Positions 629 through 21,426 of a DNA stretch of 30,377 nucleotides are shown here, one piece after another (position 1 is the first letter of the stretch; the number at the start of each line of letters is the position of its first letter). Source of the stretch: a virus; the IMG/VR virus record IMGVR_UViG_3300025769_000549, positions 1 through 30,377 of that record, one strand, 5' to 3'. The translations under genes were made by a program, and so were the position numbers. The notes beneath the pieces are model-generated. The model had not been told where the DNA came from and did not search any database. It saw only the letters and a list, made by a program, of their open reading frames with translations.

Positions 629-3600
629 TTAATTAGACGAGCCAAATTTTCTTTTTTTCTTAGACGAACCAAATTTTCTTTTTTTCTTAGACGAACCAAA
701 CTTTCTTTTTTTAGATGAGCCAAATTTTCTTTTTTTACTTGACTTTTCTCTAACATCAACACCTACACTCCAAGCGTTCCAACCTAAAATAATAGCTATA
801 CGTTTCCATGTTTGAGTTTGAGTATCTAATGCCGCTCTTATGTTTTGCAGTTTGTTATATATTCTGTTTACAGGTGCATTAAATAAACCTTCTGTAACAC
901 CTGTGGTAACCTCCCAGACAGGGTTGTCAATGTTTAATATACCCATTTCTTCTCTTTCTTGTTTGCTCCACTTCCAACTTTGTGTTGCTGAATATATTTT
1001 TCTAGCTTTAATACCAATAGGTGGTGCTAAATTAAAAAACTCAATTAATACATAAGCGTAGTCAGCCCTATTGCCTTTTTTATCTTGTTCAGCAGCTTTT
1101 AAAGCCATGTTTTTTAAAGTTGAAACAATAGCTCCACCAACACCTATACCTCTTAATGTGCTATCTAACATAGAGTTCCACAAACGAGCTTGTTTTTTAT
1201 CTATTAATTCTTCATCTTCATCTTCACCACCAAACATTAGCGCGAGTAAACCTGTTTGTAAAGCGTAAAAAATCATATTTTGAACAAAAGAATAATATAT
1301 TATTTTAGATATATTAGATTTTGTATCACCTCTACCGTTTATTAAATCTAAAAAGGCTTTTTTAGTTAAACGGGCATATTGCATTGGCGTATTTTGAAAA
1401 GCTAATATTAATCTTCCAAGCACCGAAGCTTGTTCTTGAGAAATCATATCTGCTCTAGCTGACTGCTGTGTTGCCTCTGCTATTTCTTGAAAATCTGACC
1501 AAGCTTTTTCTTTAGCTTGTTCTTCGGGCATTCCTTCGCCAACATATTTTCCAATTCTATTTCTATAAAAAGTAGCGCCTCCCATTGCAATTGCAAAACT
1601 ATCCGCAATTTGTGTTGGTGCAAAACCTTTCTGTAATAACCATCTAATAGCCGCTTTTGCCTTGTTGTCTGTTTTACTTAAATGAGAAATTAATTCAGAG
1701 GCGTTTAAATCTTGAGTCAAACCAGATCTACGTTGTTTTAAGAAATCAGAATTAAATATATCAGCAAAATCAGTCCAGAATTGTTCTTGATTTGAAAAGG
1801 CTCTTGCAGCTGCAAATATATTGTTATCGTCCCAATTTATAAAGTTTACGGTAGATAAAGTTTGTAGTATAGCTGATCTTGTGTTAACAAACATCACGGC
1901 AGCAACAGATCCGTTTAGCCAATTCATAAAATCGTTAACCATTTTGTTATCACCATAACTTCTGTTGGTACCGTTTTCCATACGCCATATTATGTCTTCT
2001 AAAGCTTGTCTAAACTTTTTACCATATATAGCTTCTATTTTATTCATGTTAGGTCCAATAAGTTGCCTGCCATTTTTACCGCCCCATTTACCAAAAACTA
2101 TTTCTCTATTTTGTTTAAATAAGTCTAAGAAAGAACCCATTTTTACATTACTAGATTTTTGAAATAAATCGTGTTTTATACCGTCTGTTTCCCATGTTGT
2201 AGTAGGCTCCGTATAACCTTTTAAATCTCTTGTAATATCATTTAAACCTAGCGCAAACGCAAGAAGCTGCTCGTCGTTTTCAACAATTGCAACAAGCTCA
2301 GCTTTATCAGTTTCTGACAAAGCAGGTATTTCGTAACCAGCCTTATCCCACAAATAAACTCTAATAGCATCTTCTACTACAAAATCACCTTGTATAATTG
2401 ACTCATTTAGCCTTTTTCGCATGCCTTCAAAACTATTTAATAGCTCGTGGTATTCGTTAGCCATTTGCTGTTTAGCTTGGTTAAGTTTTGTTATAGCTTT
2501 ATTGTAAGGATCAAGCAATATTTTTTTGAAAAACTTCATTTGCTCTTCACCTCTTTTGCCTTTACCTAAAAACGCATATAATAAACCTGCAAAATCTTCA
2601 GCAGATGGTGGAATCCAAAACTTCATTTTGCCTTGTTTTTGGCCTCTTTTTCTACCCTTCATTTCTGAAAATCTTTTTTCAGCACCAATTCCAGATTTTT
2701 CTTCTAATATTTTGTTAAACTCTTCGTTGTACTCTGCGCTTTTTGATGACTTAGCTTGTTGTATTTTTGATTTAACATCTAGCTGCTCTAACACATTTTT
2801 AACAGCTTGCACGTTTTGCAAAGCGTCATCTGCAAAATATATGTCATTATAACCTTCTTCAACTTTACCAACTATCCACAATGCTTTAGCTTCACCTGTA
2901 CTGTTGCCTAAACCTGTGATATTTCCTAAAGGTATTTCTAAGCCGTTTTGCTTTAAAAATTCATATATAGCTGGCGCTGACTCAGCAGGTCTAGCGGTTA
3001 ATACAAACATGTTTTCTGTTCCAAACTTACGAGCAAGTTTTAACGCTTTATTAAACAGCGGTGCAACTTTGCCGTCTATAACTTCGTTAAACTCTGAAAA
3101 ATCAAACTTATAACCAGCGTCAGCCATAGTAACATACTGTTTGGCATATTGAGCTGGGGTTAAAGTTCCTTTAGTTCCATCTGGAGCTGCGTATCTAATT
3201 AAAGACTTGCTTGTTGCTAAAGTATCGTCAAAGTCTAATATGCTTATACCTTTTGTTTTTTCATTATAAGCCATTGAACTAGCTAGCTTAGCAACTTCCA
3301 TGTACTGCATAGATTTACTAACGTTTGGAGCTTTTACATCTACAAAAGCACCACCAATTCTATTTTCAGGGTTTCTTATTTCTACAACAGCATCAACATC
3401 TGGGTGTCCTTTTAGCTCTTCGTTATAACTTCTATTTAAAGGTCCTTCAACGATGTTGTTCATATCGCTACCTACTTTGTATTTAGGACCAGCCATAGAT
3501 TGATAACCAGCCTTGTCAATAGCGGTGTTGTGCTTTTTAGTTATTATATTTACTGTAAAATCTTTAAACATTTGGTCAAGCAACTCGTCCCATTTAGATT

Positions 3601-6600
3601 CTGGATTGTTTTTTAATATATTAATTGTTTGAGTAATTAACATAAAGTGTGGCTTGTTATGATCGTATTCTAAGCTAGTGCCAGGATTACTAGGTCCAAT
3701 ATACTTGTTGTTTTCAAAATCCCATAATTTTTCTGAAATACCAAAAACTTTAGCAGCTTTTCTTGATGGAGCCTCCATGCCTTCTCCAAAGCTAAACATT
3801 ATATTTAAAAACATCATTCTGTCTAAAGCCATGTCGCTAGAACCATATTTTTTCCAAGCATTTGTTACTAAATACTTATAAAGAGACCTATTAACATCGG
3901 CTTGAACGTCCCTACGGTCTAAATATTCTAAACCAAACTCTTGTAAATCTCTAATAACATCTTTAGAAGTGTCATTTAAAACACTTAACCCCATGGCTTT
4001 AGGCGATTTCACGTCAAAATATCCATCAGTACCGTAGTTTACTAAATTGTAATAATCTTGCGCTCCACTAGTAACATTTGCTCTAAACCTAGACGAATAA
4101 TCTCCAGATAAAGTAACCCTAATACTACCAGGTTTTATTGGTTTAAACTGTTTGTTAGCTATACCACTAGCGCCCTTATACATCCCGCCAAGCAAAGACA
4201 ACCACAGCCTAGCGTCTTTATAAAGCATTTCTCCTTTTTGAACTTTATCTTTTAGGTCTCTAGCTATTCTAACTAAATTAACCCTACCTTTTTCTACTAA
4301 ATATTTACTAAATACAGAGCTTTTTGTATATTTACCAGAATCACCAGTTATTAATAAATCCATCAACTCAAACAGTTCGTCTTCTTCAGCTCTATTTTCA
4401 AGTCTTGAAGGAACAAAATCCATGAAAGAAGGTGCTGCTAGACCTAAAGCCTCATATCTAACGCTCATTGTTGCCCATATACTTAAAACTCCTAATTTTG
4501 AAAACAGCTGACCGTGTAATTTCTTGTAGTCTACTTTAGAACCTTTAAACGTTTTCTTAAACAACTCTAAAGTTTTCTCGCGCATTTCTTTTTCGTCTTT
4601 TTGATCGTCAATAATTATTAAAGCTATATCATAAGACATTTGTTCTAAACCTTCTAGTATTTCTACCCTTAAATCTTTGTTTTCTTTGTAATATGCTGAT
4701 CTAGCAACTTTAGAAATACCATCAGATAACGCTACTTGCAGTTTGTCGGTTAAATCACCGTGTTTGGCCATAACATTTCTTAGTGATTGACTAGCAACAG
4801 TTCTTCCAAATTGGTTAGCAAAAGCGTGCACAATAGCAGATATGTTTCTATCACCTCTAAAAGATTTGTTGTCTACAATACCAATAGCTTCTTCAATAGC
4901 TTTAATATCTACCACTGGAAATTTGTGGTACATTTGAACGTTGTTCTTTTTCTTACCCTTGTTATAAAGTAATTTTTGTAAAACTGGTCTTATTTTTGTA
5001 GGACCTATTGGTTTGTCTGTTGTTCCAACAAAACCTTCTGGTGTTACTGGCCCAACAAACAATTCAAGACCTAGTTTTCTCATAGCCATCTGCGCAGCTC
5101 TAAGCTCATTTGAACCTCTTGACTCATCTATTCTTAGGTTTGCCATAAATTTAACCGCAGGTATTTTTCCTTCTTTACTAGCCTTTGCGTTTAGCTTCCA
5201 ATTTAACTTGTCAGGATCAATACCAAAAATTTTACTTGTAATGTTGTACGCTAAATCTTGTAAGTTTGCAAAATTAACATTGTATATATCAAATATAACA
5301 CCGTCAGCATCTACAAAACCAAGATCATCTAATTCTTGCAACCACTCTTCAAAGGTTTGGTTTTTTGCAGGACCATTTTTAATTAATAAATAACCTTTTT
5401 CGTAATGATCTTCGTATTCTTTTTGTAAAGTTTCGCCACCAGCTTGAAAAGCTACGTTTACTTTAGGCAAACTTTCTTCACTTTGGTCTAACCTACTTGT
5501 CATACCACTTGTGTCAGCAACCTCATTAACACCTTCAGCATCCATACTTACAGCACCTTCAACTTCACCTTTCTTTTCTTGTTTTAATATTTGACCATAT
5601 CTAAGTGGAAGCAAGGTGTTCATATAAGCCCCAAACTCATTAACGCTAGCATCGTAAGTTCTTGCTAAAGCCACTAGTTGCTCGTAATAACCAGATAAAA
5701 ATTGATCAAAAGTAACTCTTTTACCTTCTTCAAGCGCCATTATGTTTGGGTTAGCAGCAGCAAATTTAGCTAATTGAACAGCAGCGGCCATGTTGTTTGC
5801 TATTAACGCGTCTTGCATTTCTGGTGACGCTACAACTTTACCGTTTTCTATTATATTTTCTTCTAGTATTGTTTTCCTTATTCTAGCGTTTTCTTCAATT
5901 ATTTTTTTAGAAGATTCTTTTAAGTCTAAGTCTTCTAATACTTTGTTTTCCTCATATATACTTGACGCTGCAGATTTTTGAGCTGCCGTTTTTCTTTTGC
6001 TTTTAGCCATAGCAGCTTCTACTTGGGCTTTTGTTCTTTGCTTTGCTGTAAGTTTAACTTCAACCTTTAAACCTTCTTTTTTTATCTTTTTTAAACCAGC
6101 GCTAAATCTACCTCTTTTAGCTTCTCTTGAATAATCTTCTAAGAAATTAATTAAATCTTTAGCGTCTTTAATAACTATGTTAACACCAAATTCACGGGCA
6201 ACGCTTCTGAAAATTTTACCAATTTCACCTAAAAACGAAGTGTCAAATCTATAGTTGTTTTGAAGCATATACTCTGACATTATCGTTAAAAGTTCGTCAG
6301 CATTAAGCTCGTCTACGTAACCATCTGTATCATAAGACGTTTTAAATTTATCTAAAACGTAATCTTTTAAAAAGCTACTCATTCTAGAATCGTTCTTAAA
6401 CTGCTTTCTTAATATTATAGCTAATTTTTGTATATCAGTTACGTAACCACCTGGTTTATCAGAAGCTCTTCTAGCAACTTGACCGTTAATCATCGTTTGT
6501 CTTAACATACCATGTAGTATTTCGTGTTGTATAACAGCAAAATTACCCGTGTTTTTAGCCATGTTCCAATCAACAATAATAGTATGCTTTTTATTAACAT

Positions 6601-9600
6601 CATCATAATATATCATACCACCAGCTTTTTTACCTTCAAATTGCTCTAAAGTTTCTGGTACATACTCAAGTTTTCTGTCTAATAAATTTTCTATCTGTAA
6701 GCTTACCTCTCTTTTTAAATCACCCCGTGAATCATAGTTTGATTTATCATTTCTTAACTCATCTATCTGTAGATTTAATTTTTTATTCTCAACTCTTCTT
6801 CTTGCGTTTTCTTTTTTAGCAAACTCAAAAAATTCTTCAGCAGATGTTGCTTCATGATATAAAAACCCAGATCCGTCAGCTAGTTTTTTACCTCTTTCTT
6901 TTAAAGCTTTATTTCTTTCTTCTTTTCTAACGTTATAACTGTCTTTTCTAATTTTATCGTCAATTGCAGCTATTTTATCGTTTATCTCGTTTATTTCCTG
7001 CTCTACAGCTGTTTTGTCTTTACCTTTTAATAATTCATCTTTCTGCTCTAATAAATTATTTTTTTCTCTTATATAATTAACAGTTTCTACGGTTAAATAA
7101 TCTGGCGCCATCTTCATTGCTTTAGCCATGTCAAAAGCCTCATCCATTACAGTTTTAAGCTGTTCTTTTTGTTTTTTAAGTTGACTTAAATGAGATTTTT
7201 CCCACTCTTCCATTGGAAATAAACTACCGTCATAGTTTTTTTCAATATTTTCTAATCTTTCAATCTCTTTTTCTATTAAGTCAAATCTTGCTTTTGCCGC
7301 GTTATACGTTTTACCAAGCTCTGCAAACTCTGCGTTTAATAAAACGCCTTGCATTTCTCTCACGCCTCTCACGGCTTGCACGGTACCTAAACCTTTTGCT
7401 ACAAAGGCAGTTCCTAGTATTAATTGCTCTTGAGTTCTTAAATCTGCTATTTCCCAAGAGTGGTTTGTTAAATAAACTGATTTTACTATATCGTTAACAA
7501 GAACATCTGCTTCTTCTTCTAAAAATTCTTTAGCAACATTTTTTATAAAAACTTCTCCAGCTTTTTTTCTTGCTATTAAAGAAACTGCTTTATCAAACTG
7601 TCCTTTTGAAGTGGCTTTAAATGATTCAACAAGGGTTTTAACAATACTTCTACCAACACCAGTATTGAACCATTGGTAATCTGGCATTATACCTTGGACA
7701 ATTCCAGTAGCAAGACCCATCCAACTTGCTAGTCCAAAAGCAGCGCCAGTGTCTAAGCCCTGAGATTTTCCGTATTCATAGTTTTGAGCAAATAACATTT
7801 TAAAAGTATGATCAACTTGAAGAGCGTTCATTGCAAATTTATCAGAAAACTTATATCTTTTTTGTAAGCTATGTATAATATCTAAAGAAAAATCATTTTT
7901 ATACAACTTACCTCCATTAGCAGTAATACCAAGTCTTGATGTTAAGCCTGGTTTTGCTTTTTTAATTTTATCTAAACGTTGCATTCTTAAAAGCTTCTTT
8001 CTTTGAGAAACGTTACCAGTACCCAAAGAAAGTGTAAAAGGCAATACTTCACCAATTAAAAACTTACTCCACTGATACATGCCAGCTTGTCTGTCTAGTG
8101 TTTTAAAAAATAATTTATTTTCATTTGGCTTGTCTAAAAATAAACGAGAGTCTGGGTCCATAGAGGCTGGTGTAATATCTGCTCTACTGTATTTAATAAA
8201 TTGATCACCAAACCAATCGAAAGCATCGTACTCCCCTCCACCAATAAGACCGTACTCTTCCATGTCTTTAGTGCCTATACCTAACTCAGCCGCTATTTTA
8301 GTACCTATACCCGTAAACAAAACTCCTAACGCACCTACTTTAGTTCTCATTAATCTTTTTGGAATCTCATATTTAATGTATGAGTTTAGCGCTGTAGATA
8401 ATACATCAGCGGCTTTACCCCAAGCGTTATCTCTACCAGCCATTTCTCTAAGACTTTCGTTAAATTTATCACTTATTGTAAAAGAACTTTTTTCGTAAGG
8501 GTTTTTAAATATATACGTTGGTTTACCACGAAGATAAACGCTATCAGAAAAAGCAGGTTCAAACATTTGGTCTTGCGTGTTATATGCAAGTGATGTGTAC
8601 AAGCCATTCATTTGCTTGCTTAACAAATCTCTTTTGTCATTATTTTTCTTTACCTTAGTATCAAATAAATTTAAATCTTCATTTATATCAACTCTTCTTT
8701 GCTCTAAATCTTTAGATCTTTTTATAAAATTTGTATAGTTACCTATTTGCTCGTCGTTTTTAAAGTTTGGCATCCACTTAGTTGCGCCTTTTTTGTCTGG
8801 AGCGTAATATCCTGTTGGTTTTATAATTCTATTCCAATCATCTTTTAAAGCCATAGACTCTGACTGCCATGTGCTGTATACGCTGCTTAGCCTAGATCTT
8901 TCTTCAACAAGTTTTTCACCTTCTGCAATTAGAGCGTTAGCTTTTTCGCCAATTATTTCCATGTTGTTATTTAGCACTTCAGACCTTGCTTTTAACAACA
9001 TCATCTTTTCAACATCTTCTGTTAAACCTGCTCCTCCCCAACTTGAGGACATAACTTTTTGAAACATTTCAGCTGGTATTTGCTTTAATATTTCTTTTCT
9101 TAATTGAGTTTGATATTCGCCAGCATCAAAATATTCTTCCGCAGATAATATACCTGGGTCATGGGTAAGTATTACATCTGTAAGTCTATTAAGATTTTCT
9201 ATTTGCTTTTTAGCGTTTTGTACGCCTGACGGTTCTTCTTTGTCTTTATTTAACGGGTCTTCTTCCCAGTTTTTTACAGTTGACTCGTGTTTTTCGTATT
9301 CTTGACTATAATCAATAGAAAGCTCTTCTTTTGTCATTTCAAGTTCTAAATCATACTCAAGATGATCCGCAAGTTTTTCTTTCTTTTTTTGTTTTTCTTT
9401 TATAAAGTTTTCAGGTTTGTAATCTTCTTTTTCTGCAGTAACATTTGGGTCTTCTAACTCATCAATAGTGTTATATGTTAATTCACCATCGTCACCACCA
9501 ACGGGTATCATACCGCCGGTTTGCATAAAACCTTGCGCCATAGATCTTTGATTGTTATTTACAACTTGATCTACTATATTTTGTCCAATTTGTATAATAT

Positions 9601-10558
9601 TTTCTGCTACAGGCGTGGTTTCTACTACGTCCTCATCTTCTTTTTCTATAAATATACTTTTTTGCTTTATATTGATTTCTGGATCTGTAATTTGATCCGT
9701 TAGAGAAGGGACCGTAAACATTTGCTCGTCAGTTTCAGTCTTATTAAAGGGAGTTTTAGCACCTCCTTTTACTTCTACTTCTGGAAGCATTGTTGGTTCT
9801 TGGCTCGCTTGAGCTAATTCAGGCTGTTTTTCTTCTACAGGAATTGGTTGAACAGGTATAGTCTCCATTGTTTGTGGAGAAACCTCTGGTTTGTCAGACG
9901 GCGCAACAAAAGTAGCGTCTGGCTCAGCAGGTATTGGCTCAGGAGTTTTTATTTGCTGTTGAATATCTTGCGTTGATTTTTCCTGATCTCTTTTGTACTG
10001 GTGCCAAGCTTTTTTGGTCATAGGACCCCAACTTCCATCAACGCCACTAGGACCAATATCGTAACCTTGATTAACTAGTTCTTGTTGTTTTTCTTTATAA
10101 CTACTTTTAGGTATTGTGCCGTAACTTTCTATAGCACGTCTAGTTACATGTCCAGTATCAGGATCTGCCCATTGTGGATTATCTTGCGCTATTCTGTGAT
10201 TTTTGTCATATAACACCTCGTCTAACGGTTTGTTTCCGTAAGCTGGCAAAGCTATGGTCATATATGGTTGCGCTCCTTTCTTATGATTTCTGTCAAAATA
10301 CTTTTCTACTAAATCAAGTTGTCCAAGTTCATTCATAGTTACTAACGAGCTATGATCAAAATTTAAATCTTTAGCTGTAGAATCCATGAACTGTATAAGA
10401 CCAGTTGCTGAAGAGTTTGGGTTTTTAGCTTTAACGTCAAAATTTGACTCGTTTTCTATAGCGGTCAAAAGTGAGTCCGGACTAAAACCAAACTTTTCTG
10501 AAATAGAATTTATTTTGTTTTCTACACCAGGTATTTGTAAAAACTCTTTTCTAGTCAT
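629..10558 (-). CDS. Giant 3309-aa ejected polyvalent protein with transglycosylase, zincin-like and HAD-type domains
   Basis: Residues 1-130 form a lysozyme-like transglycosylase domain: likely catalytic Glu37 in IENESNF, then ATGLIQFM near residue 52. Residues 160-185 look like a peptidoglycan-binding repeat (GVDGSWG at 172-178). A Pro/Glu-rich linker and long charged helices follow. A zincin-like site HEILH lies at 1345-1349, with a downstream acidic helix NADELLTIMSEYM at 1419-1431 that could supply the third metal ligand. A HAD-type hydrolase has DFDDT (2442-2446), LTAR (2520-2523), Lys2558 and FADD (2575-2578). A hydrophobic stretch lies near 3084-3108, and four Lys/Arg-rich repeats end the protein from about 3274. 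Fused mixed enzymes with helical spacers are typical of phage 'polyvalent proteins' packaged in the head and ejected into the host; T7 gp16 is a functional parallel for the transglycosylase part. It follows two smaller internal-protein genes. No RNA polymerase signature (DxDxD type) was seen. One uninterrupted frame; the individual activities are inference. Confidence 0.85.
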   Translation of the reverse strand: MTRKEFLQIPGVENKINSISEKFGFSPDSLLTAIENESNFDVKAKNPNSSATGLIQFMDSTAKDLNFDHSSLVTMNELGQLDLVEKYFDRNHKKGAQPYMTIALPAYGNKPLDEVLYDKNHRIAQDNPQWADPDTGHVTRRAIESYGTIPKSSYKEKQQELVNQGYDIGPSGVDGSWGPMTKKAWHQYKRDQEKSTQDIQQQIKTPEPIPAEPDATFVAPSDKPEVSPQTMETIPVQPIPVEEKQPELAQASQEPTMLPEVEVKGGAKTPFNKTETDEQMFTVPSLTDQITDPEINIKQKSIFIEKEDEDVVETTPVAENIIQIGQNIVDQVVNNNQRSMAQGFMQTGGMIPVGGDDGELTYNTIDELEDPNVTAEKEDYKPENFIKEKQKKKEKLADHLEYDLELEMTKEELSIDYSQEYEKHESTVKNWEEDPLNKDKEEPSGVQNAKKQIENLNRLTDVILTHDPGILSAEEYFDAGEYQTQLRKEILKQIPAEMFQKVMSSSWGGAGLTEDVEKMMLLKARSEVLNNNMEIIGEKANALIAEGEKLVEERSRLSSVYSTWQSESMALKDDWNRIIKPTGYYAPDKKGATKWMPNFKNDEQIGNYTNFIKRSKDLEQRRVDINEDLNLFDTKVKKNNDKRDLLSKQMNGLYTSLAYNTQDQMFEPAFSDSVYLRGKPTYIFKNPYEKSSFTISDKFNESLREMAGRDNAWGKAADVLSTALNSYIKYEIPKRLMRTKVGALGVLFTGIGTKIAAELGIGTKDMEEYGLIGGGEYDAFDWFGDQFIKYSRADITPASMDPDSRLFLDKPNENKLFFKTLDRQAGMYQWSKFLIGEVLPFTLSLGTGNVSQRKKLLRMQRLDKIKKAKPGLTSRLGITANGGKLYKNDFSLDIIHSLQKRYKFSDKFAMNALQVDHTFKMLFAQNYEYGKSQGLDTGAAFGLASWMGLATGIVQGIMPDYQWFNTGVGRSIVKTLVESFKATSKGQFDKAVSLIARKKAGEVFIKNVAKEFLEEEADVLVNDIVKSVYLTNHSWEIADLRTQEQLILGTAFVAKGLGTVQAVRGVREMQGVLLNAEFAELGKTYNAAKARFDLIEKEIERLENIEKNYDGSLFPMEEWEKSHLSQLKKQKEQLKTVMDEAFDMAKAMKMAPDYLTVETVNYIREKNNLLEQKDELLKGKDKTAVEQEINEINDKIAAIDDKIRKDSYNVRKEERNKALKERGKKLADGSGFLYHEATSAEEFFEFAKKENARRRVENKKLNLQIDELRNDKSNYDSRGDLKREVSLQIENLLDRKLEYVPETLEQFEGKKAGGMIYYDDVNKKHTIIVDWNMAKNTGNFAVIQHEILHGMLRQTMINGQVARRASDKPGGYVTDIQKLAIILRKQFKNDSRMSSFLKDYVLDKFKTSYDTDGYVDELNADELLTIMSEYMLQNNYRFDTSFLGEIGKIFRSVAREFGVNIVIKDAKDLINFLEDYSREAKRGRFSAGLKKIKKEGLKVEVKLTAKQRTKAQVEAAMAKSKRKTAAQKSAASSIYEENKVLEDLDLKESSKKIIEENARIRKTILEENIIENGKVVASPEMQDALIANNMAAAVQLAKFAAANPNIMALEEGKRVTFDQFLSGYYEQLVALARTYDASVNEFGAYMNTLLPLRYGQILKQEKKGEVEGAVSMDAEGVNEVADTSGMTSRLDQSEESLPKVNVAFQAGGETLQKEYEDHYEKGYLLIKNGPAKNQTFEEWLQELDDLGFVDADGVIFDIYNVNFANLQDLAYNITSKIFGIDPDKLNWKLNAKASKEGKIPAVKFMANLRIDESRGSNELRAAQMAMRKLGLELFVGPVTPEGFVGTTDKPIGPTKIRPVLQKLLYNKGKKKNNVQMYHKFPVVDIKAIEEAIGIVDNKSFRGDRNISAIVHAFANQFGRTVASQSLRNVMAKHGDLTDKLQVALSDGISKVARSAYYKENKDLRVEILEGLEQMSYDIALIIIDDQKDEKEMREKTLELFKKTFKGSKVDYKKLHGQLFSKLGVLSIWATMSVRYEALGLAAPSFMDFVPSRLENRAEEDELFELMDLLITGDSGKYTKSSVFSKYLVEKGRVNLVRIARDLKDKVQKGEMLYKDARLWLSLLGGMYKGASGIANKQFKPIKPGSIRVTLSGDYSSRFRANVTSGAQDYYNLVNYGTDGYFDVKSPKAMGLSVLNDTSKDVIRDLQEFGLEYLDRRDVQADVNRSLYKYLVTNAWKKYGSSDMALDRMMFLNIMFSFGEGMEAPSRKAAKVFGISEKLWDFENNKYIGPSNPGTSLEYDHNKPHFMLITQTINILKNNPESKWDELLDQMFKDFTVNIITKKHNTAIDKAGYQSMAGPKYKVGSDMNNIVEGPLNRSYNEELKGHPDVDAVVEIRNPENRIGGAFVDVKAPNVSKSMQYMEVAKLASSMAYNEKTKGISILDFDDTLATSKSLIRYAAPDGTKGTLTPAQYAKQYVTMADAGYKFDFSEFNEVIDGKVAPLFNKALKLARKFGTENMFVLTARPAESAPAIYEFLKQNGLEIPLGNITGLGNSTGEAKALWIVGKVEEGYNDIYFADDALQNVQAVKNVLEQLDVKSKIQQAKSSKSAEYNEEFNKILEEKSGIGAEKRFSEMKGRKRGQKQGKMKFWIPPSAEDFAGLLYAFLGKGKRGEEQMKFFKKILLDPYNKAITKLNQAKQQMANEYHELLNSFEGMRKRLNESIIQGDFVVEDAIRVYLWDKAGYEIPALSETDKAELVAIVENDEQLLAFALGLNDITRDLKGYTEPTTTWETDGIKHDLFQKSSNVKMGSFLDLFKQNREIVFGKWGGKNGRQLIGPNMNKIEAIYGKKFRQALEDIIWRMENGTNRSYGDNKMVNDFMNWLNGSVAAVMFVNTRSAILQTLSTVNFINWDDNNIFAAARAFSNQEQFWTDFADIFNSDFLKQRRSGLTQDLNASELISHLSKTDNKAKAAIRWLLQKGFAPTQIADSFAIAMGGATFYRNRIGKYVGEGMPEEQAKEKAWSDFQEIAEATQQSARADMISQEQASVLGRLILAFQNTPMQYARLTKKAFLDLINGRGDTKSNISKIIYYSFVQNMIFYALQTGLLALMFGGEDEDEELIDKKQARLWNSMLDSTLRGIGVGGAIVSTLKNMALKAAEQDKKGNRADYAYVLIEFFNLAPPIGIKARKIYSATQSWKWSKQEREEMGILNIDNPVWEVTTGVTEGLFNAPVNRIYNKLQNIRAALDTQTQTWKRIAIILGWNAWSVGVDVREKSSKKRKFGSSKKRKFGSSKKKRKFGSSKKKRKFGSSN
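635..740 (-). repeat. Tandem 27/30-bp repeat coding the C-terminal KK(K)RKFGSS units
   Basis: The last 35 or so codons of the giant gene are four near-identical units, each coding SSKKRKFG or SSKKKRKFG. Units are 27 or 30 bases long; the difference is one lysine codon. Differences between copies are mostly synonymous (for example ggc/ggt for Gly, aaa/aag for Lys), so the peptide is better conserved than the DNA. Each unit carries an A-run of six or seven on the coding strand. Confidence 0.93.
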
Positions 10559-10572
10559 TTATTATTATTTAA

Positions 10573-12312
10573 TTAAATTTTTGGAGCAGGTATTCTTCTA
10601 TCAACTTGACTTCTTATACCTTGACGATTATTATCTACACTACCACCTTGACGATTATTGTTGTTATTTCCCATGAAAATAGTAGGATTATAGTTAAACA
10701 TATCTGACATTTCAAAATTACCACCACCTGGCATTTCCCACTCTTCAGGGTTTCCTCCTAAAAATAAATTTTTGTAATAAGGAGATGTAGCTAAAAATCT
10801 GTTAAAAGCTTCTAGTTGGCCAGGCTCTGAAAGAATAAATTCTTTTTCTTGGTCACCTATAACAACGTTAACTTCTCCTTTTTTCATTGCTTCGGCAATT
10901 TCTTTGTCAGAACCCTCTTGCAAGGTTTGTATTTCAATACCATAAGCATTTCCAAAAAGGTCTTCGTATTGTTCAAGTGATTTTTCCATGCTTTTTGAAT
11001 TTCTCATTACGTTTTTAGAAACCATATTAAAGTATAATGGTAATTTTTCTTTTTTGGCTTGATTGTCGTAAACATCAGTATAACCACCTTGTCCATCAGG
11101 CAATTTTAAATACTCGCCTTTCATGTCTTTTTTCTTGTTAAAGTTTTCGTTATGCACGTCCGCTACAGCTCCTCCAAACCACTTACTCATACGCTTCATG
11201 TTGTGATCTGCAAAACGTTTTTGTCTAAGATAATTTGTAGCTTCTTCTTTACTCCATTGAAAATTACCATTTTCATCAAAAGCCGGTACCAAACCTCTGT
11301 CGACGGAGATCTGCCCGCTAGCAGCTTGCTCCTCTGTTAACGGCGTTGTACTTGGCCTGATTGGGTTATCTGTTTTTGTGTCAAAAGTTATGTACTCACC
11401 AGCGTCATCTTGATAAAATTCTTTTGGCAAGTTTCCTGAAGCAAAGGCATTTGCAAATGTTAAATCTTCACCATCGTCTACAATATCAGTAAAAAACATA
11501 GACATTTTTTCGTCAGTTGTGATAGGCGCTTCTGAGTTACCATCAGACTTTAAACTCTTCACTGTATTTAAAAAATCATTAGCAGCACCTTCTTTTGTCA
11601 TTGGACTTGTTGCGCCTGTACTCTTTGCTCTAACATCATTGTAAAATTTGTAAGCAGCAGTACCACCGTTTTTATACTCACCTTGTGGTGATGGTAAAGG
11701 ATTGTTTTTATCATATACAGTACCATCAGGCATCGTGACTTTTAGTCTATACCCATCTTCTTTTGGATATTCTATTTTAACACCGGTTTTGTCTTGACCG
11801 TTTATAGCTAAATGTATACCTCGCAAATGATCTCCTTGTTGTTTAGTTAACAAATCGTTGTATTGACCATCGATTTCAAAATTACCCATTTTTAGTGAGG
11901 CAAGTTGCTTGTTACCAGCGTCTATGTTTTGAATATACCCAGCAGCTTCAGTAATTTTTTTCTGAGCACCCATATCATCTTTGTTCTTAGATAATATTCT
12001 AGCTTGTTCTTGGTACATCCCACTAACCTCTTTCATTAAACCTTCCATGCCAACTACATTTTCGTTACCGGCTAGTTGAGTGTCTTCAAGAAGAGGTACT
12101 GTTTCTAATGGTGGTTTATTTTCCATTAAAGCGTTAAAAGTACCCTCTTGCCTAGCATATTCAGCTTGCATAGCTTTCATACCAGGCGCGCTAGCACTTT
12201 TAAAACTTTCGTCAAACGCTTTGTACGAAGCCACAGCAGCACCGCCATCACCAAATGCTACTTGTGTTTGTTTTAATATATTTCCATCTGCCGCTCCTAA
12301 AGTTTTTGCCAT
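10573..12312 (-). CDS. Internal (ejected) virion protein, 579 aa
   Basis: A soluble, charged protein with no signal peptide or membrane segment. The first 170 residues are mostly helical and Met/Gln/Ala-rich; the middle has a small beta-rich patch (about 185-215, with the hairpin-like VTMPDGTVYDKNNP); the C-terminus is disordered and Asn/Arg/Gln-rich, with two NNRQG copies. It sits between a 233-aa Gly/Ala/Gln-rich protein and the giant transglycosylase protein, 6 and 14 bases from them. In podoviruses this place is held by proteins packed inside the head and ejected to form a channel across the envelope (T7 gp14-gp15-gp16 arrangement), so the role is assigned by position and composition. No enzyme motif was recognised. 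A cargo protein of crAss-like type would fit equally well. Confidence 0.68.
   Translation of the reverse strand: MAKTLGAADGNILKQTQVAFGDGGAAVASYKAFDESFKSASAPGMKAMQAEYARQEGTFNALMENKPPLETVPLLEDTQLAGNENVVGMEGLMKEVSGMYQEQARILSKNKDDMGAQKKITEAAGYIQNIDAGNKQLASLKMGNFEIDGQYNDLLTKQQGDHLRGIHLAINGQDKTGVKIEYPKEDGYRLKVTMPDGTVYDKNNPLPSPQGEYKNGGTAAYKFYNDVRAKSTGATSPMTKEGAANDFLNTVKSLKSDGNSEAPITTDEKMSMFFTDIVDDGEDLTFANAFASGNLPKEFYQDDAGEYITFDTKTDNPIRPSTTPLTEEQAASGQISVDRGLVPAFDENGNFQWSKEEATNYLRQKRFADHNMKRMSKWFGGAVADVHNENFNKKKDMKGEYLKLPDGQGGYTDVYDNQAKKEKLPLYFNMVSKNVMRNSKSMEKSLEQYEDLFGNAYGIEIQTLQEGSDKEIAEAMKKGEVNVVIGDQEKEFILSEPGQLEAFNRFLATSPYYKNLFLGGNPEEWEMPGGGNFEMSDMFNYNPTIFMGNNNNNRQGGSVDNNRQGIRSQVDRRIPAPKI
10618..10659 (-). 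repeat. 15-bp direct repeat coding NNRQG twice
   Basis: The 15 bases accttgacgattatt occur exactly at 10618-10632 and 10645-10659, spaced 27 bases start to start. They code the two NNRQG motifs in the low-complexity C-terminus of the 579-aa internal virion protein. Confidence 0.8.
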
Positions 12313-12318
12313 ATTTTA

Positions 12319-13020
12319 TTATTTTTTAAATTCATCAAAACTCCAACCTCCTGTGCCATCCGCTCCTCCTGTTGGACTATAACCAGCGGCATATCCAGTA
12401 GCAACAGCACCTGCAACCTCACCAATACCACCAGCAACCATAGCTTTGTGAGCCGCTATATCTTGTTTTGCAGCGCCTAGTCTTTGCGCTCCCATACCTA
12501 ATAAAGTGCCTTGTCTAGTCATCTCCATTGATTGTTGTTGAGCAGCACCTTTACCAAACGCCATATCGGCTTGCATTTCCATTTGTTGTTCCATCATACC
12601 TCCTTTTGCCATTGCTAATTGATTAGCAGACTCTTGTTTTGATAAATCTGCCGCAATTTTTTGGCTTTGCATTACGCTTTGATTAGACAATGCTTGAGCT
12701 AAAGAGGCAATACCGCTACCTCCAGCCGCTCCTTGTAGATTTTGCATCATATTTGCTTGACTTTGTTGCATCATTTGATTTTGAAACTCAGCGGTTCTTG
12801 TGTTAACCTCTAAATCTTCAAAAGTGTTTTCGTAATTTCTTTGTATATCAGCAAAGGGATTAGATATTTCAAGATCTCTATATCTTTGCTTTTCTAAGTC
12901 AAATTCTTCTTGAGATTTTCTCAGCTCTTCTCTTCTAGCACCACGACCAGCTAAGCCCATGCCTATTTTTGCTAAGCCTCCTACTGCTCCTGATATTGCC
13001 ATTATTGCTAAAGGACCCAT
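12319..13020 (-). CDS. Internal virion protein with glycine-rich membrane-type ends, 233 aa
   Basis: Residues 1-30 are hydrophobic and glycine-spaced (AIMAISGAVGGLAKIGMGLAG), followed by a basic turn GRGARREELRK, then a long helical Gln/Met/Ala-rich body. A second glycine-spaced hydrophobic stretch lies near 195-215 (MVAGGIGEVAGAVATGYAAG). Glycine-zipper ends of this kind are usual in phage proteins that insert into the host membrane during DNA ejection. The gene is the first of the three-gene internal-protein set ending in the 3309-aa protein, so it is the counterpart in order and size of T7 gp14, the outer-membrane pore component. The homology itself is not shown. The start used is the first Met of MGPLAIM; Met7 would also be possible. 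A 49-base A/T-rich gap precedes it. Confidence 0.68.
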   Translation of the reverse strand: MGPLAIMAISGAVGGLAKIGMGLAGRGARREELRKSQEEFDLEKQRYRDLEISNPFADIQRNYENTFEDLEVNTRTAEFQNQMMQQSQANMMQNLQGAAGGSGIASLAQALSNQSVMQSQKIAADLSKQESANQLAMAKGGMMEQQMEMQADMAFGKGAAQQQSMEMTRQGTLLGMGAQRLGAAKQDIAAHKAMVAGGIGEVAGAVATGYAAGYSPTGGADGTGGWSFDEFKK

Positions 13021-15030: not shown

Positions 15031-18000
15031 TTAGTTTTGTGTTAAATTCATAGTTAAAGAAGCTTTTAATAAAGAAACAATATCATAAGCTGGCATTGTG
15101 CCTGATATAGGCACGGTAAGTCTAACAACGTTTGTGTGCAGTCCTTGGTGAGCAGTGCTAGATGTCCAAGTGCCATTATTTATATAACCATCTGCTTTTG
15201 TAACAGTACCCATTAAAGAGCTTGGATCAGACGTTTCCGTTATAGTTACGTCACTAGCCAAAATACTCCATTTTTGACCATTAACAATTTGAGGGTGTAT
15301 ATAAAAATATTGGTTTTCAGAACTTATACTACCAGCTTGTCTATTAACTGTTATTTCTTTTGTTGTTGATGAGCTTTTGTGTTGTGACGTGTTTATTATG
15401 TATTTAGGATATCTTTCTTCTACATCACTGGTTTTTGCAATGGCAATATTATCCATATTACCAGCTACATTTTTACCTTTAAATAAATCTATTTGAGTAT
15501 TTGTAGCTACAAAAGTTTCTGATATAACACCCGTTGTAGTTCTTCTTGCACTAGCACTCACACCGCTTCTTTGTGAAAAGCCCATAGCTTTGTTGTTTGG
15601 ATTTCCATTAACATCAAAAGTTACATCTGCTGAAATTGTGTATGTTTCCCCAACTTCTAAGCCACTAACTATGTCTCTTAAGTATTGTAAACTAGCTACA
15701 GCTGTACCGGTAATTTTAACAGCAGAATTTAATGTAAACCCACTTTGCGAGTGTGTTTGTCCTATAGCTGCTGGATTACCGGTTTGGCTAGTTGAGTAAC
15801 TAGCACCACCACTAGAACCATATATACTACCAACTAATGATAACGTTGGTGATGTTTCTGGTGAAAAAATTCTTATACTTTGGGTGTATTGAGTGTTATG
15901 TGTACCGCTTGTAACTGTAACAGCACTACAAACGCCAAGACCTTGAACGCTAAACTCTTCTGGATCTAAATTATTTATTGTATTTGTTGTGCCTTGTATA
16001 AAGTTAAACCACTTACCTTCTTTTTCTTTAAACTCTGGTATTTGACCTTGTTGTTTATTTGTGGTAATACGATTGCTGTACCAGCCGTTTGTAGTTAAAG
16101 TAATGTCATCATTATCTGACTGGTATATCCTAGAAGTTGTGCCTTCATAATTTAAAGCCTTAAAACTTTTAATTTTAGAAGGCGCATCGTTAAATATAAA
16201 CTTAATTGTAGAATTATATTGAGTACCGTAAAAATTATTTCTTAAAACGCTAGCGTTGTGTTGATATAGCTCACCACCAAACACAGTGTAGTAATCACCA
16301 CTTACAGAAAATCCGTTTTCAGGTAAAAAAGATTTTAAACTTGACCAACCATTTACTTTTTCTGAAAAGCTAACAGTCTTACTGTTTAGTGTTAAGTTGT
16401 AAGTGTCTTTGTCTTCGTCGTAGCTACCTATTATATTGCCAGCAGCAGATAAATTATCTTTAAAAAACGTAGACATACCATAATCAGATATATTTGTTAA
16501 ACCATCATTTGATAATCTTAAAACAGCATTTCTATTCTTGTCTGTGAAATAAACTCTATAGCCGTAACTAGCAAATGACTCAGGGTTTTTAGATATACCA
16601 AACTCACCAGCAAACGGAACTGATTGTCCTAGCACGTTGTTTGTTGATGTTAAGTTTGCATTTCCATCAGCATTAAATAAAGCGTCTTTGTTTGCTAATA
16701 TTTTTAAAACTTTATGCTCGCAAAAAGCTAAAACATTAGTATTTCTAGTGTGAAGTTTTTGTATAGTACCATAACTAGGGTTTAAATCTTTTGTTATTTT
16801 TTCTGCTTGTATAAATTGATTTAAATTATTCACACCACTTTTACTATTAAATATACCAGAGTATATTATACCACTACCTAACTCTTCTTCTTTATAAACG
16901 TCTAAAAACGTTGTACTAACTCTTGGCCCAAGATCTATTTGTGGTGCGTTAAAATTATCTTTTACTCTATTACTTTCTACTCCGTTGCCATAAGAAAAGC
17001 AATTACTAAAGTTTAATGGTATTTTATAATAATAAGTTTGTATTGTAGTAAAGTTAGGTGTATTCCCATTATTAATTGTAACATTAGGCGCATAAACAGT
17101 ACCAACTGTAAGTACCTTTTGCTTCCATTTTACATTACCATTGTCATCTTTTGTGTATATTGTTACCATAGAACCATCTTCAACATGTTTAACCTGTTGT
17201 GATGTAGCGCCTTTAATCGTAAAAGAAGGTGATAAAAAGCTTCCGCCTAACGTAATTTGAGCATTAGCAGCATAGACATTAGTGTCGGTTGTACCATCAG
17301 GTTTTATAACATCTGTTTCTATGTACATATCACTTTTTAAAACAAGAGTAGTAGTTGGTATTTCGTGATAAATATTTAAATCTGTAGTTTCTTTTGGCTG
17401 TACTTCAAAAACAGCTGGATTAGAACTAGAAAAAGTGTCTCTATTGGTTATTGGTTTTAATATTTGTAACTCTGATGTATTAGATTGCTTTTCAGCATTT
17501 GTCCAGCCTGCAGAGGTAAAAGTTGTGCCATCAGGATAAGTATGACCATCAGGCCTTCTATTATCAGGATCACTTTTTGCAGTGCCATCGTAAGGCCTAA
17601 TTCTTTTGTTTAACTGGTTAAACGCATTACCATTAGGGTCTGTAGTTATCGCTGTTGTGCCATCCACGGTGTGCGATGTTGGAGACCAAGCTATAGGCTT
17701 GTCTAAAGTTATATGCCATCTTACACCTTGGTTGTTTCTATCGTGGAAAGCAGGGTCTGTTGATATATTATTCCAGTTATTTACATCTATAAGTTCTGAT
17801 TTTTTAATAGTGTAAATAGTTTCTGTAGGATCGTCTGTCCATCTAAATTTAGTACCTATAGTTTTTAAAGCCTTGTAAAGTGTATAATTTTTTTCAATAT
17901 GCATTCTATTTGGCCCAACTTTTTGCTCGTAAACGTAACCATTCGGAAATGCAGGTTTTTTTTCATAACCTGGCCCTATATTAAAAAGTCTAATATCAAT

Positions 18001-21000
18001 TTCTTTTTGACCTAATCTAAAACCATGTCCCATGTGTCTTTGGTCATCATAAGTAGTGGATTGGCTTTTAGGCAAACTTGTGGGATGCTGAACCCAACCC
18101 CAAGCTTGATCAATAGCATATCTTTGAGGCCCTTGATTATTTTTGCCGTATCTAGTTCTTGAAATATCCCGACTACCGTTGTACGTGAAACCATTACGCA
18201 TAACACCACTAACCGTAGCTCCACCACCATCTTGCTGCGTTAAATAATGGTTAAGATTTAAATTCATATGTTCAGAAGGGTCTGGGTTTTGTGACGCGTT
18301 TACATGGTCGTTCCAAACTTGATTATCACCAGCTCCTTTGTATGTGTTAATTAAATACGTGGCTGTGTCGTTGCCATAAAAATTAGAATTAGCAGGGTTG
18401 TCTTGAGAAGTATCACCATCAGGACTCGGCGCATACCCAGTTTCTGTAACGTTGTCAGCATCAGGATCTGTGTTGCCATCTCTTGTCCATATATTTTGGA
18501 TCCAATACATTTTTTCTGTAGACTTTATACCGTAAACCAAACCAGTATCACTATTTGCAGCTATAACGTGATCAAACAAAGTGTCGTCTTTAAGTATTTT
18601 TATGTAAAATCTACCTTCAAACTCTTCATCAAACTCTTTTATTTGGTCTTCATAAAGCTCAAAATATTCCGCCCTTGTTGAGCTACCAGGTGCTCCACCG
18701 ACAAAATTTATATCAGTGCCAAATGGTTTTTTTAAAGTAAACTCATAATAATCGTCGTTATCAGTAAAATCACCATCAGAATTGCTATCTACTCTTGTTA
18801 TAGAGTCAACTTCATAATATTGAGAAACTGTATTTTTTAAAAAAGAACCTATTCGTATAAATCTATTAGTAGATGTTGTAGTAGCTGAGTTTTTAAGAGC
18901 ATCAATATTGGCTATACCATTATTACCTCTAATTCTAACAACTACGCCGTTTTCTATAGGATATCCAGTTGTGTTGTCACTATTTGTTCCAAACAAACAA
19001 TTTTCTAACCTACCTAATAATTTTCTTTTTACACGAACAACATCTGGTGCCGACCCTTGTTTTTCTAAAACCTTGTAAGTCGGTGTATAACCTAGTAAAA
19101 ATGGACTGCTAGCATCATGCGCTTTTTTTAACACTATATTATCACCTACTTGAACTTTATTAATATCACTTGTTGGAAAAGAAACCCAAGCAAACTCTTC
19201 AGTTTCATTTTGGTATATTCTATCCATAGTAATATTATAATACTCACCCTTTGGCTCTTTAATATAATATTTTAAGTGAGTAGCCCAATTAGGTATATCA
19301 AAATCATATGTTGCAAAAAATTCATTTGTAGTAAAAGAATTGTTTTGTCCTATTGTTATTTTTGATTGTTCGGGATTTACAAAAGAAGGGGAAAACACTG
19401 GCGTTTGTCTTCCGTATTTATCTAATAAACTAACGCCAAGTTGATACGTTCTTAAAGATTTTATTGATTTTACAGCGTTATTACTAGAGTTGTAATCACC
19501 TGAAGAAGTCATTTCTAGTTTAAATATAGGCTTGTCAGCTGTTAAATTTCTCTGTTGCTTGTAGTTTGCATATAAAAGCCTATTAGCAGTTATTTCTTGA
19601 GCACGCGCAGAGGTAGGTACGTTATCGTAAGGTCTTAGCAGTTGATTGCTAGGAAGCATTGCGTTTACCTGATCACTAGTAATGTCTAAAGAAGTAAAAC
19701 TAGAAAGTTGATCTGAATCAATTGTTTTAAATTTATATATATTTGTTGCGTCTGAAAATTTTACCAAAACCTCAAGTCTTTCAACGCCCGGCGGTTTTGT
19801 ATCAAAGTTAGATAATGTTATTAAACTAACTGAGTTTTCCATGTTTTTATTATAACCTATTTCAGCGTCAAGCTCATAACCTGTTGATGTTGGCAAAAAA
19901 GCAACTTCGGAAAAAGGTGATATACAAGAAAATTCACCGTCATCATATCTCCATCTGTATGCAAATCTAGGAAAAACATCTTCAAATATAGACGTGTCAG
20001 TTTCTTTAGTAACATCCCAGCGATCAAGATCTCCAACAGGCATTGTTGCTATAGCAGGTGAAATACTTAATATAGTAGCGTCAAAAACTTTTCTAGTTGA
20101 ATTTGATTTAACCAGACTAGTTGTATCTTCTTCAAGTAGCTTTAATCTTATTCTTACATTATCATCTTCGTCTAAAGTAGTGGTAGTGTCTGGAGCTGTT
20201 AACTCTATAATATCGCCCTCTTTGTAATTAGGTCTTGGTGAAAATACCAACTTTTGAATCATTATTTGACGTGAGTTGCTGTCTAAAACAACAGCGCCAT
20301 CTTTGTCTTTAAGTGGTGTTTTTGAGTTTGTTCCAGGTGGTTTAACAACAACAATGTTGTCTTCGTTTCTGTAAGTCCAAAACGACTCGTTTTGATATGT
20401 TGACAATGCCCATCTAAAACCAACAATTGTGCCCGAGTTAATAGTAGAATTTGGCGCTGCTGTTAACGTTACCGTAGAGTATGTACCGCTTCCACCAGGA
20501 TCGTCTTGAACTGACACTACACCTATAACATTGTTATTACTATCTTTAATTACATTACCACTAGAATCTACAAACGTCATGTTAGGTTGTATACAATCCC
20601 ATTGCGCAGCATTTCCACCTTGGCCAGCAAACGTAGCTGTTGTGCTGTTTAAACCTGCAGTTAAAGCAAACGTGTGATTAGTGTTGTATATTTCGTTTGT
20701 AGCAGTAGAACCTGTAGCAAAAGGATCACCAGTACTTCTTCGACTAGTATTTGTTGGGTGTTCAAGAACAGAAAGACTTGGATCTGTAGTTCCACCGGCA
20801 TCTTCAAATAAAGCTATATCTGGAGCGTTTAAAGGATATTGTTTTATTACAGTTATGTGCTCCTCTAAAACATCATCACTTGTTATATTGTTTGAACCGT
20901 CTCCTTGTAATTTAACAAACTTTGATGTAGTTGAAAAATTTGTGCAACCAAGTTTAAATCTATCAATGTTTATTTTTTTAGGTTCGTTTTCACCATCAGT

Positions 21001-21426
21001 CCAAAAAAGCAAACCATCAATAATGTTTATACCTGTTACTAAATTGTTTTCAGTGGTTCTAACGCCATTTTGAACTTTAAAATTTAAAAACGAGACACTT
21101 CCACCATGATTGTCTACAAGTATAGGTTCTACCGCGTCCGCAGCTTGATTATACTCTGCTATCGCATCCACGCTTGTGCCAGATATAAACCATATAACAT
21201 TTTGGTTTTCTGGATTTACAATACTACCAATGCACTCTGCACCTGTTATGCTTAAGTTTGATACTTTTAAATTACCATACGAATTTTGCGCCGAACCAAT
21301 GTCACTACCTTCTGTTGTGGCAATGTCAATGTTTAAAGCGTCTCTATATTCATTTTTAGGTACTAATCTTTCGTCGAGGTCTTTATTCATTTTCCCCGAC
21401 GTAAAAGTATTTTTAATCTCCGGCAT
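15031..21426 (-). CDS. Giant tail hub / stabilisation protein, 2131 aa
   Basis: The N-terminus (KNTFTSGKMNKDLDERLVPK, then NEYRDALNID) is of the type found at the start of tail stabilisation or tubular proteins of phages of this sort: an arm followed by beta-propeller-like repeats. The body is rich in Asn, Thr and Asp and is strand-dominated. Around residues 1560-1720 is a block with PFAGEFGISKNPESFASYGY, then RVYFTDKNRNAVLRLS and NISDYGM, which reads like a propeller blade region. Residues about 1840-2010 resemble a carbohydrate-binding jelly roll (GLEVGETYTISADV). The gene follows two adaptor genes with a 3-base gap (TAG TAT ATG) and precedes the fibre gene by one base. It likely plugs and extends the portal-adaptor channel and displays receptor-binding parts; functional parallels are T7 gp12 and P22 gp10. 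Host recognition through its C-terminus is inference. It is far longer than gp12 (about 800 aa), so extra domains have been gained. Confidence 0.75.
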   Translation of the reverse strand: MPEIKNTFTSGKMNKDLDERLVPKNEYRDALNIDIATTEGSDIGSAQNSYGNLKVSNLSITGAECIGSIVNPENQNVIWFISGTSVDAIAEYNQAADAVEPILVDNHGGSVSFLNFKVQNGVRTTENNLVTGINIIDGLLFWTDGENEPKKINIDRFKLGCTNFSTTSKFVKLQGDGSNNITSDDVLEEHITVIKQYPLNAPDIALFEDAGGTTDPSLSVLEHPTNTSRRSTGDPFATGSTATNEIYNTNHTFALTAGLNSTTATFAGQGGNAAQWDCIQPNMTFVDSSGNVIKDSNNNVIGVVSVQDDPGGSGTYSTVTLTAAPNSTINSGTIVGFRWALSTYQNESFWTYRNEDNIVVVKPPGTNSKTPLKDKDGAVVLDSNSRQIMIQKLVFSPRPNYKEGDIIELTAPDTTTTLDEDDNVRIRLKLLEEDTTSLVKSNSTRKVFDATILSISPAIATMPVGDLDRWDVTKETDTSIFEDVFPRFAYRWRYDDGEFSCISPFSEVAFLPTSTGYELDAEIGYNKNMENSVSLITLSNFDTKPPGVERLEVLVKFSDATNIYKFKTIDSDQLSSFTSLDITSDQVNAMLPSNQLLRPYDNVPTSARAQEITANRLLYANYKQQRNLTADKPIFKLEMTSSGDYNSSNNAVKSIKSLRTYQLGVSLLDKYGRQTPVFSPSFVNPEQSKITIGQNNSFTTNEFFATYDFDIPNWATHLKYYIKEPKGEYYNITMDRIYQNETEEFAWVSFPTSDINKVQVGDNIVLKKAHDASSPFLLGYTPTYKVLEKQGSAPDVVRVKRKLLGRLENCLFGTNSDNTTGYPIENGVVVRIRGNNGIANIDALKNSATTTSTNRFIRIGSFLKNTVSQYYEVDSITRVDSNSDGDFTDNDDYYEFTLKKPFGTDINFVGGAPGSSTRAEYFELYEDQIKEFDEEFEGRFYIKILKDDTLFDHVIAANSDTGLVYGIKSTEKMYWIQNIWTRDGNTDPDADNVTETGYAPSPDGDTSQDNPANSNFYGNDTATYLINTYKGAGDNQVWNDHVNASQNPDPSEHMNLNLNHYLTQQDGGGATVSGVMRNGFTYNGSRDISRTRYGKNNQGPQRYAIDQAWGWVQHPTSLPKSQSTTYDDQRHMGHGFRLGQKEIDIRLFNIGPGYEKKPAFPNGYVYEQKVGPNRMHIEKNYTLYKALKTIGTKFRWTDDPTETIYTIKKSELIDVNNWNNISTDPAFHDRNNQGVRWHITLDKPIAWSPTSHTVDGTTAITTDPNGNAFNQLNKRIRPYDGTAKSDPDNRRPDGHTYPDGTTFTSAGWTNAEKQSNTSELQILKPITNRDTFSSSNPAVFEVQPKETTDLNIYHEIPTTTLVLKSDMYIETDVIKPDGTTDTNVYAANAQITLGGSFLSPSFTIKGATSQQVKHVEDGSMVTIYTKDDNGNVKWKQKVLTVGTVYAPNVTINNGNTPNFTTIQTYYYKIPLNFSNCFSYGNGVESNRVKDNFNAPQIDLGPRVSTTFLDVYKEEELGSGIIYSGIFNSKSGVNNLNQFIQAEKITKDLNPSYGTIQKLHTRNTNVLAFCEHKVLKILANKDALFNADGNANLTSTNNVLGQSVPFAGEFGISKNPESFASYGYRVYFTDKNRNAVLRLSNDGLTNISDYGMSTFFKDNLSAAGNIIGSYDEDKDTYNLTLNSKTVSFSEKVNGWSSLKSFLPENGFSVSGDYYTVFGGELYQHNASVLRNNFYGTQYNSTIKFIFNDAPSKIKSFKALNYEGTTSRIYQSDNDDITLTTNGWYSNRITTNKQQGQIPEFKEKEGKWFNFIQGTTNTINNLDPEEFSVQGLGVCSAVTVTSGTHNTQYTQSIRIFSPETSPTLSLVGSIYGSSGGASYSTSQTGNPAAIGQTHSQSGFTLNSAVKITGTAVASLQYLRDIVSGLEVGETYTISADVTFDVNGNPNNKAMGFSQRSGVSASARRTTTGVISETFVATNTQIDLFKGKNVAGNMDNIAIAKTSDVEERYPKYIINTSQHKSSSTTKEITVNRQAGSISSENQYFYIHPQIVNGQKWSILASDVTITETSDPSSLMGTVTKADGYINNGTWTSSTAHQGLHTNVVRLTVPISGTMPAYDIVSLLKASLTMNLTQN

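Follow-up and report, generated by a model that had tools for sequence, protein, structure and literature searches.

A HAD-centred family of giant polyvalent-type proteins, with an exchangeable N-terminal head, as probable ejection proteins of podoviruses related to Flavobacteriia phages

The window analysed here, a stretch of 30377 bases forming one IMG/VR virus record, encodes a giant protein of 3309 aa (374 kDa) that is, with a probability of roughly three in four, an internal virion (ejection) protein of polyvalent type from a podovirus with Flavobacteriia-infecting relatives. At least 572 relatives are recovered by profile searches of IMG/VR. Judged by its conservation, a HAD-superfamily hydrolase domain together with the C-terminal module behind it (~850 aa) is the fixed, family-defining core, and the N-terminus, the middle domains and the tail are exchangeable between relatives.

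The gene occupies positions 629..10558 on the minus strand, as do all features described below. Its frame is uninterrupted over 3309 codons, with an ATG start and no internal stop; the first-pass annotation had reported this frame, and the minus strand can now be added to it. Across the same interval, the plus strand holds no ORF longer than 126 aa. Because a full-length homologue exists (G003, equal to L012/L016; 3324 aa, 63% identity), the length of the ORF is not a product of chance. The protein consists of several regions: an N-terminal lytic transglycosylase (SLT), a probable peptidoglycan-binding repeat, an acidic and poorly conserved linker (residues 200-420, 9299..9961, net charge -29), a spacer (residues 420-1260, 6779..9301), a zincin-like domain, a middle domain (residues 1720-1960, 4679..5401), the HAD domain, the C-terminal module and a basic tail. 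The spacer is confined to the window's own subfamily, being common only to L016, L017, L047-L049 and, in part, L052 and L090. The middle domain occurs in 35 of 100 relatives and gave no family match and no fold match; a fold search with the model of residues 1231-2420 returned nothing above a probability of 0.05 and is taken as uninformative. Matches of the giant to LAGLIDADG, DnaB_2, TRF and DUF885 fall under the curated cut-offs and are treated as chance. Directly before the HAD domain, residues 2190-2440 (3239-3991, minus) form an otherwise variable domain containing an invariant E-H pair (residues 2299-2300) and a conserved Arg (residue 2376), possibly another enzyme.

Relatives emerged when searches were run with an alignment, a viral search with the single sequence having given no match. 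The profile of the HAD domain and the following segment is matched in all 100 loci examined (a set that includes two contigs present twice), where the giants range from 2032 to 4134 aa. In public genomes, relatives are found on MAG contigs only. Labels on the longest contigs read Sphingobacteriales, Bacteroidetes and Saprospiraceae; those of other kinds on some short contigs are probably a binning artefact.

The HAD domain spans residues 2436-2640 (2639..3253), with D2442, D2444, T2521, K2558, D2577 and D2578 as the putative catalytic residues. All four motifs of a HAD-type hydrolase, an assignment already made from the sequence alone, are present and family-conserved: DFDDT at 2442-2446, LTAR with T2521, K2558, and DD at 2577-2578. 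In an alignment of 61 sequences, which leaves out the divergent loci L055 (DVDAT) and L110 (motif absent), they never vary except at the fourth position of DFDxT; DFDxT is kept in 98 of 100 relatives. The domain matches PHROG 415 (E 1.2e-5 for the window, 5.5e-8 for the best relative), and a match to Pfam DUF2608 lies under the cut-off. In Foldseek searches of the HAD region, HAD phosphatases are among the best matches with probabilities of 0.96-0.99, yet with weak E values (0.14-0.8), the model having a pLDDT of ~57-81. Sequence searches of the PDB with the HAD and C-terminal profiles gave no meaningful match. A close relationship to T4 PseT was rejected, since the hhalign comparison is not significant and motif I alone aligns; crAss001 gp60 was likewise not significant. 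In INPHARED, no DNA match to the window was found, and tblastn gave no clear HAD relative.

The zincin-like domain (residues 1310-1500, 6059..6631) contains the site H1345-E-I-L-H1349 and a distal E1422. The presence of such a site, also noted in the first-pass annotation, is borne out by family-wide conservation: conservation over 77 aligned relatives is concentrated in an N, the HExxH and the distal E, HExxH is kept in 88 of the 92 complete ORFs of relatives, and 76 of 100 loci match the zincin profile. In the structure model, HExxH sits on a helix following two strands. The domain has no MPTase match in Pfam. With this degree of conservation, both the HAD domain and the HExxH site look selected as enzymes.

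At the N-terminus, residues 14-127 (10178..10519) form the predicted lytic transglycosylase, with a catalytic-type Glu37 in an ES motif. The domain matches Pfam SLT PF01464 (E 1.1e-6, 28.6 bits against a cut-off of 21.3), the lytic transglycosylase 9udh in the PDB (E 9e-12) and PHROG 4928 (E 2e-17), and carries both signature motifs, NE37SNF with the catalytic Glu and GLIQF at 53-57 (GLxQ motif). Both enzymes whose absence from profile searches would have spoken against the original proposal are recovered, the transglycosylase by significant profile matches and the HAD hydrolase by its conservation across the family together with PHROG 415. The PHROG matches of the SLT also include PHROG 196 (baseplate hub) and tail proteins. 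The peptidoglycan-binding repeat (residues 153-197, 9968..10102) is probable: its similarity is weak in the window (endolysin PHROGs, E 0.015) and stronger in the relative L007 (E 9.5e-4).

The SLT is found only in the window, L006, L007 and L048. Among 89 N-termini scanned, a set to which the window, L006 and L007 are additional, recognisable heads comprise one SLT, three GH108 domains, assigned from sequence to L017, L047 and L049, and one T4-type lysozyme, assigned in the same way to L027 (PHROG 7 endolysin). Over 3108 aa, L047 and L048 share 93.6% identity, yet L047 carries a GH108-type head and L048 an SLT, and their DNA is homologous on either side of the swapped stretch. The N-terminus is accordingly described here as a swappable cassette of putative peptidoglycan hydrolases: SLT, GH108 or T4-type lysozyme. 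That unrelated hydrolases substitute for one another at one place argues strongly for wall cutting as the job of the N-terminal end. The remaining 84 of the 89 N-termini are without a recognisable peptidoglycan hydrolase, which is counted against the ejection reading and suggests that wall cutting may be done otherwise in most relatives. The N-terminus of L016 was considered as a hydrolase and left unassigned, with no Pfam, PHROG or meaningful PDB support. The transglycosylase is a variable accessory cassette and not the defining part of the giant; the defining part is the HAD domain with the C-terminal module.

The C-terminal module (residues 2640-3270, 749..2641) is conserved, mainly helical and present in all relatives. 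Its structure model is of moderate quality (pLDDT 61), a point that weighs against the ejection reading. Foldseek neighbours in a viral library include the Gundel_1 structural protein (E 2e-7) and proteins annotated as ART-PolyVal-like or 'large polyvalent protein associated'. A hydrophobic stretch at about residues 3087-3110 had been pointed out previously; it is present and conserved but falls short of a persuasive membrane helix, and nowhere along the chain does a 19-residue segment score above 1.5 on the Kyte-Doolittle scale.

The chain ends in a basic tail (632..748) of four (K)KKRKFGSS units, the repeat tail that had been recognised at the outset, encoded by a 27-bp tandem repeat of 4.0 copies at 633-736. 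In the 63%-identical homologue, the tail instead consists of acidic FEFADDN-type units with a 21-bp repeat. Sorted by a simple rule, the tails of 95 relatives are basic in 46, Cys/His (DUF5763-like) and zinc-binding in 31, acidic in 2 and unclassed in 16. Tandem repeats occur in the last 150 bases of 34 of 95 genes, compared with 34 of 950 internal controls, and are thus about tenfold commoner at the 3' end, an excess for which lysine-rich codon runs account in part. It may be guessed that the tail serves as a docking or packaging tag.

The window is probably a genome fragment, its large terminase gene being cut at the right end. It contains 14 genes, all on the minus strand, in the order large terminase, portal, 385 aa, capsid, 275 aa, 233 aa, 289 aa, 2131 aa (tail), 517 aa, 133 aa, 233 aa, 579 aa, giant and lipoprotein, the giant being the last large gene of the block from terminase through portal and major capsid protein to tail. 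The terminase (29055..30377, 5' end cut by the contig end) matches PHROG 6681, the portal (26630..29053) PHROG 6547 (E 4e-160), the major capsid-type protein (23960..25420) PHROG 13704 (E 7e-92) and the 2131-aa tail protein (15031..21426), muzzle/nozzle-like by position, PHROG 14478 (E 2e-121). An hhalign comparison (probability 100) identifies phi38:1 gp097 as a homologue of the tail protein. The 579-aa protein (10573..12312) is a candidate second ejection protein by its position, which resembles that of N4 gp51 and crAss001 gp46. The 233-aa protein (12319..13020), a candidate third ejection or core protein by position, adjoins the giant in relatives and is weakly similar to phi38:1 gp099.

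In ctfjg026, Maribacter phage Panino and Flavobacterium Elemovirus, portals are found that share 42-54% identity with that of the window; phages of Cellulophaga and Tenacibaculum gave further portal matches. The gene block runs colinear with gp090-gp101 of Cellulophaga phage phi38:1, in which gp101, annotated 'structural protein', fills the slot of the giant, and also with Elemovirus and ctfjg026, whose giants measure 3694-3859 aa. From the portal identities and the colinearity with phi38:1, the virus appears to be a podovirus whose relatives infect Flavobacteriia, and its host is probably a member of the Bacteroidota.

Two further genes of the block merit description. The 517-aa gene (13476-15029, minus), situated between the tail and 133-aa genes, has no PHROG match, and phi38:1 is without a counterpart at that place. 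A small lipoprotein-type gene (MKKLLILLLLVSC; 72-620, minus) adjoins the giant gene. Its product is 81-82% identical in L016 and L030, and the core of the L030 giant is only ~53% identical, a disparity that suggests recent exchange. The lipoprotein may act in superinfection exclusion or as an outer spanin.

In cultured relatives, giants of 1691 to 3859 aa stand at the corresponding late position and have little sequence in common. Several are annotated as structural protein, and this shared location speaks for the ejection reading; that the label is deposited annotation is a point counted against it. HExxH is present in the giants of Elemovirus, Gundel_1 and ctfjg026; phi38:1 gp101 has neither HExxH nor the HAD motif. 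QQV91510.1 of Tenacibaculum phage Gundel_1 (Pachyviridae), a 2482-aa 'structural protein' with HExxH that follows genes of ~226 and 512 aa, an arrangement like that of the window, is homologous to the C-terminal part of the window giant (25% over 244 aa; hhalign probability 90). Unlike the window giant, it is without a DxD[D/E]T HAD motif and an SLT-type motif.

Phage polyvalent proteins include giant, late, virion-packaged proteins in which zincin-like MPTases are fused to a lysozyme or transglycosylase and other enzymes (Iyer et al. 2017, PMC5512222). A zincin is a frequent, not a universal, component of such chains. The parallel with this class, drawn before any database search, is a good one: the fusion of lysozyme or transglycosylase with zincin is described there (PMC5512222), and PolyVal-annotated proteins are among the Foldseek neighbours. 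The window giant likewise unites several biochemically different domains in one chain (SLT, zincin and HAD), some of them variable, and is encoded by a late gene beside virion genes. The terms 'haloacid', 'HAD superfamily' and 'phosphatase' do not occur in the main text of PMC5512222. The named LPD domains gave no Pfam LPD match in the giant, and a separate search for LPD38 found none, with an uninformative control.

The gene layout resembles N4 gp52-gp51-gp50 and crAss001 gp45-gp46-gp47, the latter likewise following a muzzle gene. N4 gp50-gp52 are ejected proteins (PMC12633501), and crAss001 gp45-gp47 are cargo proteins stored in capsid and tail, gp45 being proposed to exit N-terminus first (PMC10172136). 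No sequence link from the giant to N4 gp50/51/52 or to the crAss001 cargo proteins was found, which also counts against the ejection reading. With T7 gp16, a type of protein that PHROG 342 describes as 'internal virion protein with endolysin domain', the giant shares an SLT at the head of a very large chain, which in T7 is ejected. The SLT of L007 and L048 matches at the N-terminus of PHROG 342 (about residues 6-104 of 1235; E 1e-6 for L048), and the similarity is confined to this domain, no other having been found. To our knowledge, T7 gp16 has neither a zincin nor a HAD domain, and N4 gp50 has no N-terminal SLT.

On the ejection reading, the giant would be packed near the portal, held by the helical C-terminal module and by the charged or zinc-binding tail. 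By analogy with T7, N4 and crAss001, it would exit N-terminus first, and its 579-aa and 233-aa neighbours would complete the ejection channel. The SLT would then cut peptidoglycan while the peptidoglycan-binding repeat grips it, so that the channel crosses the wall. The zincin may cleave the chain, releasing its later part, or may cleave a host protein. The HAD domain would act in the cytoplasm as a phosphohydrolase on a phosphorylated substrate; PHROG 415, the phage family nearest to it, hints at nucleotides or the ends of nucleic acids.

The lytic transglycosylase is equally the part of the chain from which a different location can be argued. Its activity is periplasmic, a baseplate hub family and tail proteins are among its matches, and delivery of the giant to the cytoplasm is a step that we infer; the protein could then open the wall or belong to the tail core as a virion-associated component, remaining in the particle or in the periplasm, with zincin and HAD domains that are relics or work in the periplasm. 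Such an arrangement is unlikely, as the near-invariance of the HAD residues and of HExxH has the look of selection for enzyme function, the tail gene of the block encodes a separate protein of 2131 aa, and proteins of polyvalent type are among the Foldseek neighbours of the C-terminal module. The replacement of the N-terminal hydrolase by unrelated ones bears on another possibility, a late cytoplasmic or assembly protein absent from mature virions, such as a prohead-maturation protease fusion. A peptidoglycan hydrolase maintained in this way makes little sense there, and the syntenic giants are annotated as structural; this role is therefore quite improbable, even though the block contains no separate recognised prohead protease and P1 DdrB, a polyvalent protein, is cleaved before packaging (PMC5512222).

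The resemblance to N4 gp50 in size, gene position and the succession of an HExxH domain (C1) and a large helical C-terminal region (C2) (PMC12633501) would also fit a virion RNA polymerase of giant size, comparable to N4 gp50 or to the RNAP-associated proteins of crassviruses. This identity is the most remote of those considered: hhalign comparisons of residues 1231-2420 and 2396-3285 with N4 gp50 and crAss001 gp47/gp49/gp50 gave probabilities below 1%, and no RNAP family was matched in sequence searches of Pfam, PHROGs and the PDB, which constitute the check for residues 1-1230. An ejected protein of polyvalent type thus remains the preferred reading.

In conclusion, the polyvalent class is known, and neither the HAD-centred family nor the cassette swap seems to have been described before; no title or abstract on a HAD-centred polyvalent family was found in a search that left most subscription journals outside. 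The entry machinery of Bacteroidota podoviruses, of which little is known, thereby gains a defined and very common family, and at least one otherwise unrelated giant 'structural protein' of cultured flavobacterial phages, that of Gundel_1, is tied to polyvalent proteins. The natural exchange of SLT and GH108 in the near-identical L047 and L048 offers a ready-made test of the role of the N-terminal cassette in wall entry. More speculatively, and with rather low confidence, a HAD phosphatase may be preloaded in every particle of a large family of Bacteroidota phages, enter before or with the DNA and immediately act on signalling nucleotides or the ends of nucleic acids in take-over or counter-defence, the wall-cutting head being swapped like a cartridge to suit the host wall and the basic, acidic or zinc-binding C-terminal tail being swapped as a virion docking tag. 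If true, such an invariant HAD phosphatase, packaged so as to be delivered, would represent a new kind of first-strike phage enzyme.
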